52,311 nucleotides of DNA, taken from positions 1 through 52,311 of the IMG/VR virus record IMGVR_UViG_3300005532_000255, one strand, 5' to 3'. Below are positions 2,563 through 51,965 of the stretch, piece by piece (within the stretch, counting starts at the first letter, position 1; each line of letters begins with the position of its first letter). This DNA comes from a virus. A model generated the notes under the pieces. It was not told the origin of the DNA. It did no database searches and saw only the letters and a program-made list of their open reading frames with translations. The position numbers were made by a program, and so were the translations under genes.

Positions 2563-3225
2563 ATGTCGACACTTAAAGCCCGAATCATATTGGACAGCGC
2601 GAAGAGCTCAACGCAGAGCTTCTTCGCCGCCTTTGACACGGTGAGGACTGCCCGAGGGGCAACCGCAGGCGCCCCGACAGATGAAGAACAAGATCTTCTC
2701 CGTGCCGGGCTCGTCTTCGCAGCCGCTGGTTTGGACTCTATGCTCAAGCAGCTCATCCGAGAGGCGATCACGCGCCTCGCCGAGAAGAACCCAAAGGTCC
2801 AAGAGGAACTGGAAACCTTTGTGCACCGGCAGATCCGAGGCGATTCAGAGGGCTCCGAAGCAATCTCGGGCCACAAGTTCTTGGCGAGGGTGCTGGTCTC
2901 CGCGAACTTACAGGCCCGCCTGATCGAGGAATATGTGCGAGAATTAACTGGCACTAGCCTGCAATCGGCAGATCAGCTCTTCAAAACCGTGAGGGCGTTG
3001 GGGCTTGATCCGAAAGAAGCTCAACTTGACGCACAGCAACTTAAGGGCATCTTCGACATCCGAAACAAGATCATCCACGAACTCGATGTAAACCTGAACA
3101 CCGCACGTGGAAGGCGGACGCGTCACAGCCGACGAAAGCCCGAGCTGGAGGAGCACGCCCGAAAGCTTCTTGATGTTGGAGAGCGCATTCTTGGAGAGAT
3201 CGAACAGCAATTGAACTCAGCCTAA
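2563..3225 (+). CDS. HEPN-domain protein (putative RNase), rightward moron
   Basis: 220 residues, mainly helical. The segment DIRNKIIHELD holds R167-N-K-I-I-H172, the R-x4-H signature of HEPN domains, which are often metal-independent RNases in toxin and phage-defence systems. The arrangement (an early conserved helix pair, then RN..IH) is reminiscent of the RiboL-PSP/MAE-type HEPN families. It reads against the leftward phage genes and its end overlaps the helicase end by 9 bases. No antitoxin-like nucleotidyltransferase is adjacent. The motif is seen; the RNase role is family knowledge; a defence role is inference. Confidence 0.6.
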   Translation: MSTLKARIILDSAKSSTQSFFAAFDTVRTARGATAGAPTDEEQDLLRAGLVFAAAGLDSMLKQLIREAITRLAEKNPKVQEELETFVHRQIRGDSEGSEAISGHKFLARVLVSANLQARLIEEYVRELTGTSLQSADQLFKTVRALGLDPKEAQLDAQQLKGIFDIRNKIIHELDVNLNTARGRRTRHSRRKPELEEHARKLLDVGERILGEIEQQLNSA

Positions 3226-4893
3226 ACCGGCGCTCCGGGCTCGACATTCAAACCGCCCCACCTCTCGCAGGAAAACCATCTCGATGTTTTTCGTCGGGCC
3301 GTTCCGCTGTTTGGCAACGGCCAACTCGGCCTTCCCCCGCACCGATTCGTCGCGGGGTTTGTACATCTCCTCGCGGTACAGCAGCAGGACCACATCCGCA
3401 TCCTGCTCCAGCGTGCCGGAGTCGCGGAGATCGCTTAGGCGCGGCCGCATGTCGCCGCCGCGTACTTCCGGCGCGCGGCTCAGCTGTGAGAGCACCAGGA
3501 ACGGCACGTTGAATTCCTTCGCCGCCAGCTTCAGCTCGCGGGAGATGCCGGAGACCTCGGCGTTGCGGTCTCGCCCGCGCCCCGTCATCAGTCCCAGGTA
3601 ATCGATCACCACGAGGACGAGCTTCTGCTGTGCCGCTAGCCCTCGCAGCGCGGTGCACACTCCCTGGACGGTCGCCCTGGTGTTGTCGCTGATGTACAGG
3701 GGCGCCCTGGCAATCTCGCCAAGCGCAGCGGCAATCCGGCGCCGTTCCTCTCTGTCCAACTCGCCGCGCCGCAGACGCTGGCCATCCACGCGCGCCTCCT
3801 GCGAAATCAGCCGGCGCAGCAGGGATTCCTTGCTCATCTCCAGCGAGAACAGGGCAACGCAACCGCCGCCGCTCTTCGCTGCGTGGTAGGCGATCTGCAA
3901 GGCGATCCAGGTCTTCCCCATGGATGGCCGCGCGGCCACCAGACACAGCTCACCGTTGTGCAGGCCGCAAGTGAGGTCGTTCAGGGCCCGCCACGGGGTC
4001 TGTAGGCCTGGCTGCGGTCTAAGGAAGCTGTCCACGCCGCCGGCAGCGGAAAGGATTTGCTCGGGGCTGAAGAACTGCGGCTGAGCCTGTGGCTTGTGGT
4101 TGGCCTGCTCCGGGAACCAGCTCGCCCCCAGCGTGGAGACGGCACCCGCGTCCAGGACAGGCGCTGCCTTGACGGCCTGTACGAGCTCGTCTTTGCCGTG
4201 GCCCCGTGCCAGCCAGTCCGTCGCGTCCCCCTTCTTCGGGAGGCCCGGCAGCTCCACGAGCTTGACGCCACGGGCTACCGGCAACAGCGACTGCGCCGCC
4301 CGCAGAGCATGCCGCCGGCCTTCGTCGTCGTTGTCGGGCAGAATGACGACGAGCTTGCCGGCAAGGGACTGAGCGTAATGATCGCGCCACTTTCCGGCCC
4401 CGTGCGGGTTGCACGTCGCCGTCAGCCCCAGTCCACGCAGCGTCTCGACATCCTTCTCGCCCTCGACCAAGTAGACGCACTCGGCCGCCAGGACCTCCGG
4501 CAGGCGGTACAGAACGCGTCGAACGTCCCCGAGCTTCCAGGTTCCGTCCGCCCGGCGCTGCGCGAACGACTTCGGCGAGTACCGGATGACCTCGAACAGC
4601 AGCTTGCCGTGTTCGTCGGTGTACGGGTAGGTGGCGACGATCTGGCGCTGCGGCGCTTCTGAGGGGCCGTGCTCCTGGCCGCACTTGCATCGGCCACGCA
4701 GCCGGTGCGGGTAGGTTCCACTCTCTGGATTCTGCTCGATCCCGCCGGCTAACTCGTCGCGCGTGCAGTGCGCGAATTCACCGTCGCTCGACAGATAGCC
4801 GAAGCAGCGCTTCCCCTGACCGCGCGGCGCCTCGTCGCAGCCGCCGCAGATCGGACACGGATTGCGGCGATGAAACCGTTGCTGTGGTCTCAT
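3217..4893 (-). CDS. Primase-helicase fusion (TOPRIM + DnaB-type)
   Basis: 558 residues in three parts. The first is a cysteine-rich zinc segment (CPIC at 13-16 and further cysteines to about 71). The second is a TOPRIM primase-like domain with E144 in VEGEKD and D187/D189 in PDNDDEGR. The third is a RecA-type replicative helicase with Walker A ARPSMGKT (320-327) and Walker B VVIDYLGLM (D430). The plan resembles T7 gp4 and makes the protein the replisome motor and possible primer maker. Its ATG overlaps the stop of the O-like gene (ATGA at 4893-4890), so initiator and helicase are translationally coupled. Whether the primase part is active cannot be told from sequence alone. Confidence 0.9.
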   Translation of the reverse strand: MRPQQRFHRRNPCPICGGCDEAPRGQGKRCFGYLSSDGEFAHCTRDELAGGIEQNPESGTYPHRLRGRCKCGQEHGPSEAPQRQIVATYPYTDEHGKLLFEVIRYSPKSFAQRRADGTWKLGDVRRVLYRLPEVLAAECVYLVEGEKDVETLRGLGLTATCNPHGAGKWRDHYAQSLAGKLVVILPDNDDEGRRHALRAAQSLLPVARGVKLVELPGLPKKGDATDWLARGHGKDELVQAVKAAPVLDAGAVSTLGASWFPEQANHKPQAQPQFFSPEQILSAAGGVDSFLRPQPGLQTPWRALNDLTCGLHNGELCLVAARPSMGKTWIALQIAYHAAKSGGGCVALFSLEMSKESLLRRLISQEARVDGQRLRRGELDREERRRIAAALGEIARAPLYISDNTRATVQGVCTALRGLAAQQKLVLVVIDYLGLMTGRGRDRNAEVSGISRELKLAAKEFNVPFLVLSQLSRAPEVRGGDMRPRLSDLRDSGTLEQDADVVLLLYREEMYKPRDESVRGKAELAVAKQRNGPTKNIEMVFLREVGRFECRARSAGLG

Positions 4894-5642
4894 CGCCAGT
4901 ACTCGGGCAGGTCCGCATCGGCGGGTTTGGGATCATCGAGCCAGCGCTTTTCGGAAAGCCATTTCGCCGGAGCGGGGATGTACTTGCCGTTTTCCTTCTC
5001 CCATTCCTCGGATCGCAGCCAGCGCTCGAGGCCCGCCATGACCTGGTCGGCGATGGCATCCAGGCCGAGGCTCAGCCACATCTGCACCGCCATGGCCTTG
5101 CCGGTCTTGCGAGGGTACTTCTCCCAGAACCGGTCGAACGCCTCCCCGGAGTGAGATTCCGGCGACTGTACGCGCGATGCGTGACGCGCTTCTGTTCCGT
5201 TCCCCGTTCCCTTCTGTTCTGTTCTCTTCTCTTCTGTTCTATGTACACTCGGGTGACACTCGGGTGACAGGCGGGTATCACCCGGCTGCCACTCAGGTGT
5301 CCCGCCCGGCTCGATGCTTTCTAACCAGCCTATTTTCAGCAGCCTCGGGATGGCCTCGGCGAACACCTGGGCCGGGCAGCGCGTCACGCGCTCCAGCGCC
5401 TCTTCGTCGTAGGGCCTTCCGCCGTCGCGCACCAGGGTGCCACGCGGGTGACACTTGGATGCCACCTGGATGATAAGGACCCAGGCGCCGAAGTGAGCGG
5501 CCCCGTTTGCGTGGCTGATCAGCTCCGTATATCCGTCGCCGTCGTGCTTGTTGGGGATGGGGACCCAGTGGAGATTCTGGCGACCCCGGCTGCGGCTGTT
5601 CTCAAAGCGGTCGTCCCAATCGACGATGCGGAGGACCTTCAT
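4890..5642 (-). CDS. Lambda O-like replication initiator / helicase loader
   Basis: 250 residues. The N-terminal part (about 1-135) looks like a winged-helix initiator domain. The middle (HRTEEKRTEQKGTGNGTEA) is low-complexity. The C-terminal part FDRFWEKYPRKTGKA...PAPAKWLSEKRW is the helicase-interacting domain seen in many phage O/DnaT-type proteins. ATG at 5642 overlaps the stop of the upstream nuclease gene (ATGA). The coding sequence contains two blocks of 11-bp repeats (5242-5307 and 5426-5480), as the lambda origin lies inside gene O. Initiator function is therefore supported by domain, position and internal iterons. The repeats are not a codon effect, because 11 is not a multiple of 3. 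Confidence 0.8.
   Translation of the reverse strand: MKVLRIVDWDDRFENSRSRGRQNLHWVPIPNKHDGDGYTELISHANGAAHFGAWVLIIQVASKCHPRGTLVRDGGRPYDEEALERVTRCPAQVFAEAIPRLLKIGWLESIEPGGTPEWQPGDTRLSPECHPSVHRTEEKRTEQKGTGNGTEARHASRVQSPESHSGEAFDRFWEKYPRKTGKAMAVQMWLSLGLDAIADQVMAGLERWLRSEEWEKENGKYIPAPAKWLSEKRWLDDPKPADADLPEYWR
5206..5307. repeat. Iteron array A1 with pyrimidine-rich flank, candidate replication origin
   Basis: A pyrimidine-rich tract of TTCTG/TTCTC repeats (5206-5240) ends in TTCTATGTACAC. It is followed by 11-bp units starting at 5242, 5253, 5264, 5275, 5286 and 5297. The best units are GTGACACTCGG, GTGACAGGCGG and GTATCACCCGG; the consensus is GTGNCACNCGG. Spacing is exactly 11 bp, so the sites fall on roughly one face of the helix. 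The array is inside the O-like gene, the classic place for a lambdoid origin. The last unit is weak. Confidence 0.7.
5426..5480. repeat. Iteron array A2
   Basis: A second run of 11-bp units lies in the same gene, starting at 5426 (weak), 5437 GTGCCACGCGG, 5448 GTGACACTTGG, 5459 ATGCCACCTGG and 5470 (weak). It has the same consensus and phase length as array A1 and is separated from it by about 120 bp. Confidence 0.6.
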
Positions 5643-45203: not shown

Positions 45204-47077
45204 TCAGAGGTGAAACCTCCCCACGATCCGTCGCACGGGCCCAGGCCTGCTAACCGGCCGTGAGGGCGCTGCAGCTTTCGCATGTGGAGCGAGTGCTCCA
45301 ACTTGCTCCCTCAACTGCGCCCACCGTTTCTCACCGAACCTCTCGATGCCCAGCACAATCGCAGCAGCGCGAGCGTAGATCCTGGTGTCGAGCGCCTCGT
45401 TGCGCTCCCGGATCTTCTTCCACTCCTGCTTGCGGTAGCCGCCCTTGGTGACCCGCGTGACCAACTGCTCGGCCGTGAGCTGCCTGAAGAACTCATCGCC
45501 GATCTGCGGGAAGTGGCAGTAGCCGGGCGGGTGCGGCTCGCCGTCGAGCGGCGCCGGCAAACGCAGCCAGCCGTACAGCTCGCTCTTAAGCGTGCCGGTG
45601 GAGACAGGCCACACGCGGATGCCGCGACGCAGCTTCTTCCCCGTGCCAGCCACATCGACAGCGGCCGGTATCCCAACGGCCGCCGGAGCATAATCCACGC
45701 CCTTGACGACCAGGATGCGGCCGGGCCCCTGCTGGCGCGCCCAGTCGTAGACGTACTGCGTGCCAAAACCCGAGTCGATGGCAAGCCGCTGAATCGGCAT
45801 CTCGATTCCATTGGCGCGGCGATATGTGGCCGCGAGCAGATCGGTCAACTGACGCCACACTGACGCGCTCGCCGTGTCGCCCTCCAGCACCACGTAATCG
45901 ACCAGCCAGCTTTCTTTGCCTTCGCCCCAGGCGACAACCTGAACTTCGATGCGATCTTTCTGCACGTCGGCGCCGGCGGTGAGAACCAGACCGCCGGCCG
46001 GCACGGTGCCGAGAACGTAGTCCTCGCGCCGCTCGTAGAGGCGCTGCCAGTCGGGCGCTTCGCCGGATTCCACCCACGGCTCGGCCAGCACCGTGTTGAC
46101 GAACTCCCGCAACGTCTCCTGCGATTTCTGGTCTTGCAGGAACTTCTTGGCGAGCGCGCCCCACTTCCGCCAGGGCGAGTAGAGCGCGTTGATCCAGAAC
46201 CCCACCGTCCCGCTCCCCGGGTTCGCCGCCCGCCATTCGCCCCCCTGGAGCATCCGGTGCTTTTGCCAATCCTGGATGTCGCCAGAACAGTGCTCGCACT
46301 GATAGTGCGCCTTCTGCGGCTCGCCCTTCGGCCAGACTAGGCGCTCCCATCGCAGCACCTGATATTCCTCGCAGTGCGGGCACGGCACCCAGAAGCTGCG
46401 CTGGTCCGACTCCAGCCACGCCGCCTCGATCCTCGACAGCCCTTTCACCGTGGGCGTCGAGCACATGGCGATCTTGCGGTTCCAGAAGTTGGCGTGCGGG
46501 TGATGGCCAGGTTGACCGGATCGCCTTCGCTGCCGGCGCTCGCCGGATACCGGTCGATCTCGTCGAGCAGGCAGTAGCGGATCGAGCGCATCGCCAGACC
46601 CGCCGGCGAGTTGGCGGCCGAGAGCGTGATCGTCCCGCCCAGAAACTTCTTGTGCAGGATCGTGTTCCGCGAGTCGCGGCTGCGGGCTTCGGAGACTTTC
46701 CCGTGCAGGCACGGCGTGTCGCGCAGCATGGGCGCCAGGCGGTCCTTCGAGAAGGCCTCGGCGTCGATCTCGCGCGGCTGGACCATCAGGACGGGCCCGG
46801 GGTCGAGGTCGATGACGTAGCCGAGGAAGTTTTCGAGAATCGAACTCTTGCCCATCTGGGCGGCGCTCATGATTACGACCGTCTCTGCCGGATGGCTGGG
46901 GCTGAGCACATCCATGATCGCCCGCTGATAGGGTGCGCGATCGGTTCGCCACTCGCCCTTCTCCGCCGCCGACTCGGAGCTCAACCGGCGGTTCCGGTCG
47001 GCCCATTCCGAGACCGTCAGGTCGGGCGGCGGAACCAAAACCTCGGCCGCCAGGATCTGGATCTCTTCAACGCGCAT
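45204..47077 (-). pseudogene. Terminase large subunit (gpA-like), interrupted by a frameshift
   Basis: The N-terminal 195 residues (start at 47077) carry Walker A SAAQMGKSS (71-79) and Walker B LLDEID (D172, E173). The C-terminal part is in another frame and continues NFWNRKIAMCSTPT, with zinc pairs CPHC and CEHC, a nuclease-like GADVQKDR and IDSGFGTQYVYDW. The two parts would join at about 46492-46500, where one base is missing: GDPVNLAITRT should flow into NFWNRKIAM. No slippery heptamer is present, so programmed slippage is unlikely. If the loss is real, packaging is dead. A sequencing error would restore a gene of about 624 residues, close to lambda gpA. Confidence 0.85.
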
Positions 47078-51418: not shown

Positions 51419-51451
51419 GATGCACGTCTCGTTTCAGAAAATTCGCCTGCT

Positions 51452-51484
51452 GTGACACCGGAGTGACACCCTGGTGTCACGGTT
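51452..51484. repeat. Iteron array B1
   Basis: Three 11-bp units start at 51452 (GTGACACCGGA), 51463 (GTGACACCCTG) and 51474 (GTGTCACGGTT). Same family as the units in the O-like gene. Confidence 0.65.
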
Positions 51485-51578
51485 CCCTTCTGTCCCTGTT
51501 CTGTTCTGTTCTGTTCTGTTCTATGTACACCTGAGTGGCAGCCGAGAGACACCCGGGTGACACCCGCGTGTGACCGCT
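51482..51578. repeat. CTGTT tract plus iteron array B2
   Basis: GTTCCCTTCTGT, then five CTGTT copies (51496-51520) and TTCTATGTACAC lead into 11-bp units at 51524 (weak), 51535 GTGGCAGCCGA, 51546 GAGACACCCGG, 51557 GTGACACCCGC and 51568 GTGTGACCGCT. The flank is the same as that of array A1 (5206-5248). Confidence 0.7.
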
Positions 51579-51602
51579 GGTAAGTCTTTGACGGTGGACT
51601 AC

Positions 51603-51618
51603 CTTAGGTGCGCCTAAG
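51603..51618. repeat. Inverted repeat CTTAGG-TGCG-CCTAAG
   Basis: Six-base arms around a four-base centre, between iteron arrays B2 and B3. It could be a regulator or initiator site. Confidence 0.5.
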
Positions 51619-51624
51619 CCAAAG

Positions 51625-51690
51625 GTGGCAGCCGGGTGACAGGCACGTGGCAGGCGAGTGACACGCCCTTGGCATCACAATGTCAACCGC
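51625..51690. repeat. Iteron array B3
   Basis: Six 11-bp units in exact phase start at 51625 GTGGCAGCCGG, 51636 GTGACAGGCAC, 51647 GTGGCAGGCGA, 51658 GTGACACGCCC, 51669 (weak) and 51680 (weak). Confidence 0.7.
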
Positions 51691-51965
51691 ACCCGCACCC
51701 TAATTTTTGGGCAATTCGCTGGCGAAAACGTGCCATCTCTCTACCCGCCGCCCGCCGCGCCAGGAAGTACCTAAAAACTCAAACTCTTACGGGCCATTGA
51801 CGGCGACGTCCGGAATAGAAACTCAAAGTTTATGTTTCAAACACTTCTACGTAAAACGTTTGTAGCCAATGAAGCGGTCTTGGGAAAGGCCGTTGTATTA
51901 CCTCCACGCTCCCCACGACGCGCGGGCGGGCCTATATTGCCCGGGAACTGGTCACCGGCCGGACA

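Follow-up and report, generated by a model that had tools for sequence, protein, structure and literature searches.

The window analysed here, 52,311 bp long, covers a whole virus record for which end repeats are not reported, and the features of interest are collected in Table 1. On its left side lie a replication initiator gene and a gene for a primase/DnaB-type helicase, which are distinct genes. The matches of the initiator to the replication initiation families PHROG 9474, 270 and 9327 fall in its C-terminal part, which AlphaFold2 models as helical with weaker confidence. The N-domain (residues 1-112) is modelled mostly with a pLDDT of about 90, and residues 115-166 are disordered (pLDDT <50). 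Compared with winged-helix chains, including Rep-type initiators, the N-domain gives Z scores of 5-6, which are low; in a Foldseek search of the initiator against the PDB the best E value was 0.16 and no match reached 0.001. One contig, L008:10003, matches the DNA of the helicase gene at about 85% identity, but there window position 4230 is joined straight to 11717. This contig is thus without the initiator and array A, through either deletion or misassembly.

The initiator gene contains a first array of 11-bp iterons, array A. Judged from their coordinates, block A1 and the adjoining pentamer run encode approximately residues 113-146, that is, part of the disordered linker. An earlier note on this DNA named block A1, but the array extends beyond it to block A2, for a total of about 10 units. 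At the other end of the window, array B (51451-51689) consists of about 14 units of 11 bp with the consensus RGTGRCASCCG. The three blocks of about 13 units reported earlier at 51452, 51524 and 51625 are indeed present, the weight matrix giving about 14 units; the phasing then ascribed to them holds within each block but not from block to block. Blocks B2 and B3 are separated by an inverted repeat, CTTAGG-TGCG-CCTAAG (51603-51618). The pentamer runs of both arrays have 52-56% A+T in 50-nt bins and lie in G+C-rich surroundings, and the A+T-rich stretch adjoining array B is a possible unwinding or promoter region.

Table 1. Coordinates of the two repeat arrays and of associated features in the window.
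Feature	Coordinates	Strand	Evidence
Primase/DnaB-type helicase gene, downstream of initiator	3217..4893	-	Pfam DnaB_C 5e-85, PHROG 239
Replication initiator gene, 250 aa: winged-helix-like N-domain, disordered linker, helical C-terminal part	4890..5642	-	PHROG 9474/270/9327, AlphaFold2
Array A pentamer run TAG(AACAG/AAGAG)n, adjoining TATGTACAC unit	5206..5240	-	
Block A1, 6 iterons of 11 bp, in linker-coding sequence	5241..5306	+	weight matrix
Block A2, 3-4 iterons, in N-domain coding sequence	5436..5479	+	weight matrix
ParB-like/DNA methyltransferase gene, late side, kept in L012	49515..50933	-	
Block B1, 3 iterons, beyond pentamer run from B2	51451..51483	+	weight matrix, shuffle scoring
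Array B pentamer run TAG(AACAG)n, non-coding	51489..51523	-	
Block B2, TATGTACAC junction unit and 4 iterons	51523..51577	+	repeat count, BLAST, weight matrix
Block B3, 6 iterons	51624..51689	+	weight matrix
Block of ~85 bp kept in L012, next to the differing array of L012	51699..51785	.	alignment
A+T-rich stretch adjoining array B, 54-60% A+T	51800..51899	.	50-nt bins

Array B duplicates the full module of array A: the 11-bp iterons, the special proximal unit TATGTACAC and the pentamer run (AGAAC)n occur in both with equal order and orientation. On the minus strand the common order is iterons, then GTGTACATAG, then pentamers of the AACAG type. The flanking segment said to be shared by the two arrays was found at both places (51482-51530 and 5206-5248), and the whole record contains exactly two copies of TTCTGTTCTATGTACAC. 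When positions 51440-51700 were compared by BLAST with their own record, array A was matched with an E value of 1.6e-13; the alignment of B to A is ungapped over 104 nt with 72% identity. Circularity was avoided by training a weight matrix on the units of array A alone, with which both strands of the window were then scanned. The best three-unit sites outside array A were the three blocks of array B, with 19.3-30.9 bits; on the plus strand these blocks scored 23.5, 22.9 and 19.3 bits and the next best site in the 52 kb scored 8.3. In a four-slot score B3 reached 20 and B2 18, against a best value of 16 in 20 Markov shuffles of the window. Array B is therefore a well supported candidate for a second initiator-binding region, as judged from its sequence.

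The second set had been described as non-coding, and no reading frame spans it: stops occur in all frames and none is open over the full length of the array. RNA family and tRNA searches gave no match. The ungapped alignment with array A could have arisen by copying, so that array B might be a functionless leftover, either a duplicated piece of the initiator linker or what is left of an earlier initiator gene; a contig in which the apparent initiator gene adjoins ParB and terminase genes (L143, below) would accord with a leftover. However, matches to the N- and C-terminal domains of the initiator are absent around array B, on which ground a relic gene was rejected, and the core positions of the iterons are conserved in B at least as well as in A. 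The nearest late-region relative, moreover, retains a complete module in this position, although of a different type. A leftover thus seems highly improbable.

This relative, L012, has in common with the window the terminase and the ParB/methyltransferase region. The block of flanking sequence shared by L012 and the window has no further viral match. At the homologous non-coding spot L012 carries another 11-bp module, composed of three copies of TTTCCGAAA, then TTTTCTGCATG and a hexamer run of six GCAGTT; the GTGACAC units of the window are replaced by three copies of TTTCCGAAANN, ahead of TTTTCTGCATG and the hexamers. Iterons of the TTTCCGAAA type, TTTTCTGCATG and a hexamer run also occur on a separate contig, L143, inside an apparent initiator gene, which was called by its layout and has no family match; this gene adjoins ParB and terminase genes. 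The module at the spot in L012 and the same type within the gene in L143 imply that the distal place is kept and has the specificity of a different in-gene type. The initiator is absent from the L012 contig, and a matched exchange of array and initiator is therefore a prediction. Somewhat speculatively, the late side could be a fixed slot for a second origin in which the module is swapped to fit the initiator type of the phage, paired origins co-evolving genome-wide in temperate phages. The L013 record has no matching array. The large terminase gene of the window (45204-47077, minus strand) is split over two frames near 46490, while that of L012 is a single frame with an apparent intein; the ParB-methyltransferase gene of L012 also has an apparent intein.

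Iterons of this kind are widespread. Exact arrays of four GTGNCA units repeated every 11 bp are present in 89 stretches of viral contigs, and many of the genes that hold such arrays are annotated as replication initiation or O-like. This bears on the proposal that the repeats of array B are used by another DNA-binding protein, such as a repressor, a ParB-like protein or the terminase. GTGNCAC is pseudo-palindromic, as are many operators, and genes for a ParB-like protein and terminase are nearby, but the same units sit in the initiator gene here and in initiator-annotated genes of many other phages, which makes such a protein a very unlikely user of the array. The initial pattern scan had matched unrelated A+T-rich contigs, and array B DNA compared with 50,697 phage records gave chance matches only.

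A relaxed-pattern search found an array in 48 of 50 records, normally as one cluster among the matches listed, the exceptions there being arrays close together or at record ends; many of the records are fragments, which limits this count of single arrays. No more than one pentamer site is present in any of four prophage genomes that encode related initiators. A distant second site is thus not general for the GTGNCA iteron type, and this counts against a second origin at array B, since phages with such iterons do not in general need another site.

The pentamer run is an apparent part of the origin, as indicated by two observations. Among the 111 viral pentamer runs with enough DNA upstream, 19 show strong 11- or 12-bp periodicity just upstream; among 555 random stretches, 1 did so at these periods. 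Relatives of the initiator at four loci, in MAGs labelled Pirellulales, Planctomyces, Hydrogenedentes and Rhodopirellula, have linkers rich in runs of the AGAAN type; the MAG labels suggest a Planctomycetota-like host. In L145-L147 short repeats coded in the linker precede an AGAAN-type run, with a different repeat unit in each. Many viral genes in L160-L278 have an AGAAG/AGAAC pentamer run just past iterons of 10-12 bp, often joined through CTAG or ACAG. A pentamer run after iterons may be a general origin element. The pentamer alone was discarded as a diagnostic, since its hits in 392 genomes of a single phylum were mostly plain microsatellites.

Since pentamer runs often follow 11-12 bp iterons in viral initiator genes, array B resembles a complete origin. 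Three roles had been put forward for it: a second origin, a handcuffing locus, or a site for control of genes. The first is the best reading, because array B has, besides iterons, both the junction unit and the pentamer run; the control roles remain as rivals. We therefore consider that array B is probably a second replication origin, recognised by the same O-like initiator whose gene holds the first. As a control site, array B would bind the initiator for titration, for handcuffing with array A, or for regulation of the late-side genes starting at about 51417. It lies just upstream of the first leftward gene of that side and has more units than array A (14 against 10). A control site would not need the TATGTACAC junction and the pentamer run, however, yet both are kept without coding constraint, and the array of L012 likewise keeps an adjoining short tandem run. 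A search for a sigma-70-like promoter near array B was negative, which is a weak test for hosts of this sort. On balance, a purely regulatory site appears unlikely.

The composition of the genome bears on the relative roles of the two arrays. The raw GC skew declines as far as about 6 kb and then increases until about 38 kb, and the low at fourfold sites is near 9.5 kb. The turn (6-9.5 kb) is thus on the side of array A, which fits a role for array A as the main bidirectional origin. There is no turn at array B, which counts against an origin there and in favour of a control site; if array B is an origin, it may be a late or minor one. In the mechanism that we propose, the winged-helix-like domain of the initiator would bind the iterons of both arrays, strands would open at the pentamer run, and the C-terminal domain would recruit the primase/DnaB helicase. 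Forks starting at array B would travel left into the late genes. Less certainly, initiator bound there might act late in infection, stalling forks and triggering the switch from circles to the concatemers needed for packaging, as has been proposed for oriR of SPP1.

A two-origin layout is already known from this Bacillus phage, in which oriL lies in gene 38 and oriR is distant, intergenic and on the late side; both are bound by gp38, and oriR has been proposed to halt forks and so to initiate the synthesis of concatemers (PMC6316719, PMC3485210). As in SPP1, there are here two separate origin-type sites of similar make-up: an array in the initiator gene and, on the late side, a distant non-coding array built of the same units. 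The direct repeats of SPP1 accompany an opening region, for which the pentamer run is the candidate here. Binding of the initiator to both sites has been demonstrated for SPP1, whereas here it is predicted from the DNA. SPP1 is lytic with a separate helicase loader, whereas the present phage bears an integrase, for which reason we call it temperate; the 11-bp units with a pentamer run and the different distal repeats of L012 also set it apart. The earlier note, which knew of no temperate phage with such a pairing, had overlooked the double origin of SPP1, although the precedent, being lytic, is not a temperate one. What we describe is accordingly a variant of a known layout in an integrase-bearing phage.

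The origin of lambdoid phages lies in the O gene, and these phages are described with that single origin (PMC7466680). Both there and here the iterons sit midway along the initiator gene, next to an easily opened region in the lambdoid phages (PMC7466680) and to a candidate for one in the present phage. Here a replication initiation annotation is combined with iterons coded in the linker, but the present phage has a second, gene-free copy. A second, looser precedent is provided by two sites with the same short repeats in another element. The satellite phage P4 has separate sites, ori and crr, that share these repeats and one initiator; in P4 the initiator is fused to primase and helicase, and both ori and crr are required. 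Unlike in P4, the initiator and helicase are here on separate genes, so there is no such fusion. In the literature found, reasoning on two origins for one initiator in a small phage rests on SPP1. If our reading is correct, another example from an unrelated phage with an integrase, together with the L012 module, makes the question testable by comparison, and repeat runs in initiator genes would act as DNA beyond their role as protein linkers.

The 46 kb noted earlier between the two arrays applies to the linear contig only, and an excised circle could place the sites about 6 kb apart. The left 162 bp may be host DNA, which makes the ends, and hence the spacing of the arrays on the excised genome, uncertain. 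They code for the beginning of a type I-G Cas3 (Cas3g); the left end is either DNA of the host or another element, or the record is permuted. Ahead of the integrase gene, at about 430-478, the 3' half of a tRNA resembling tRNA-Pro(CGG), its 5' half absent, can be recognised by eye.
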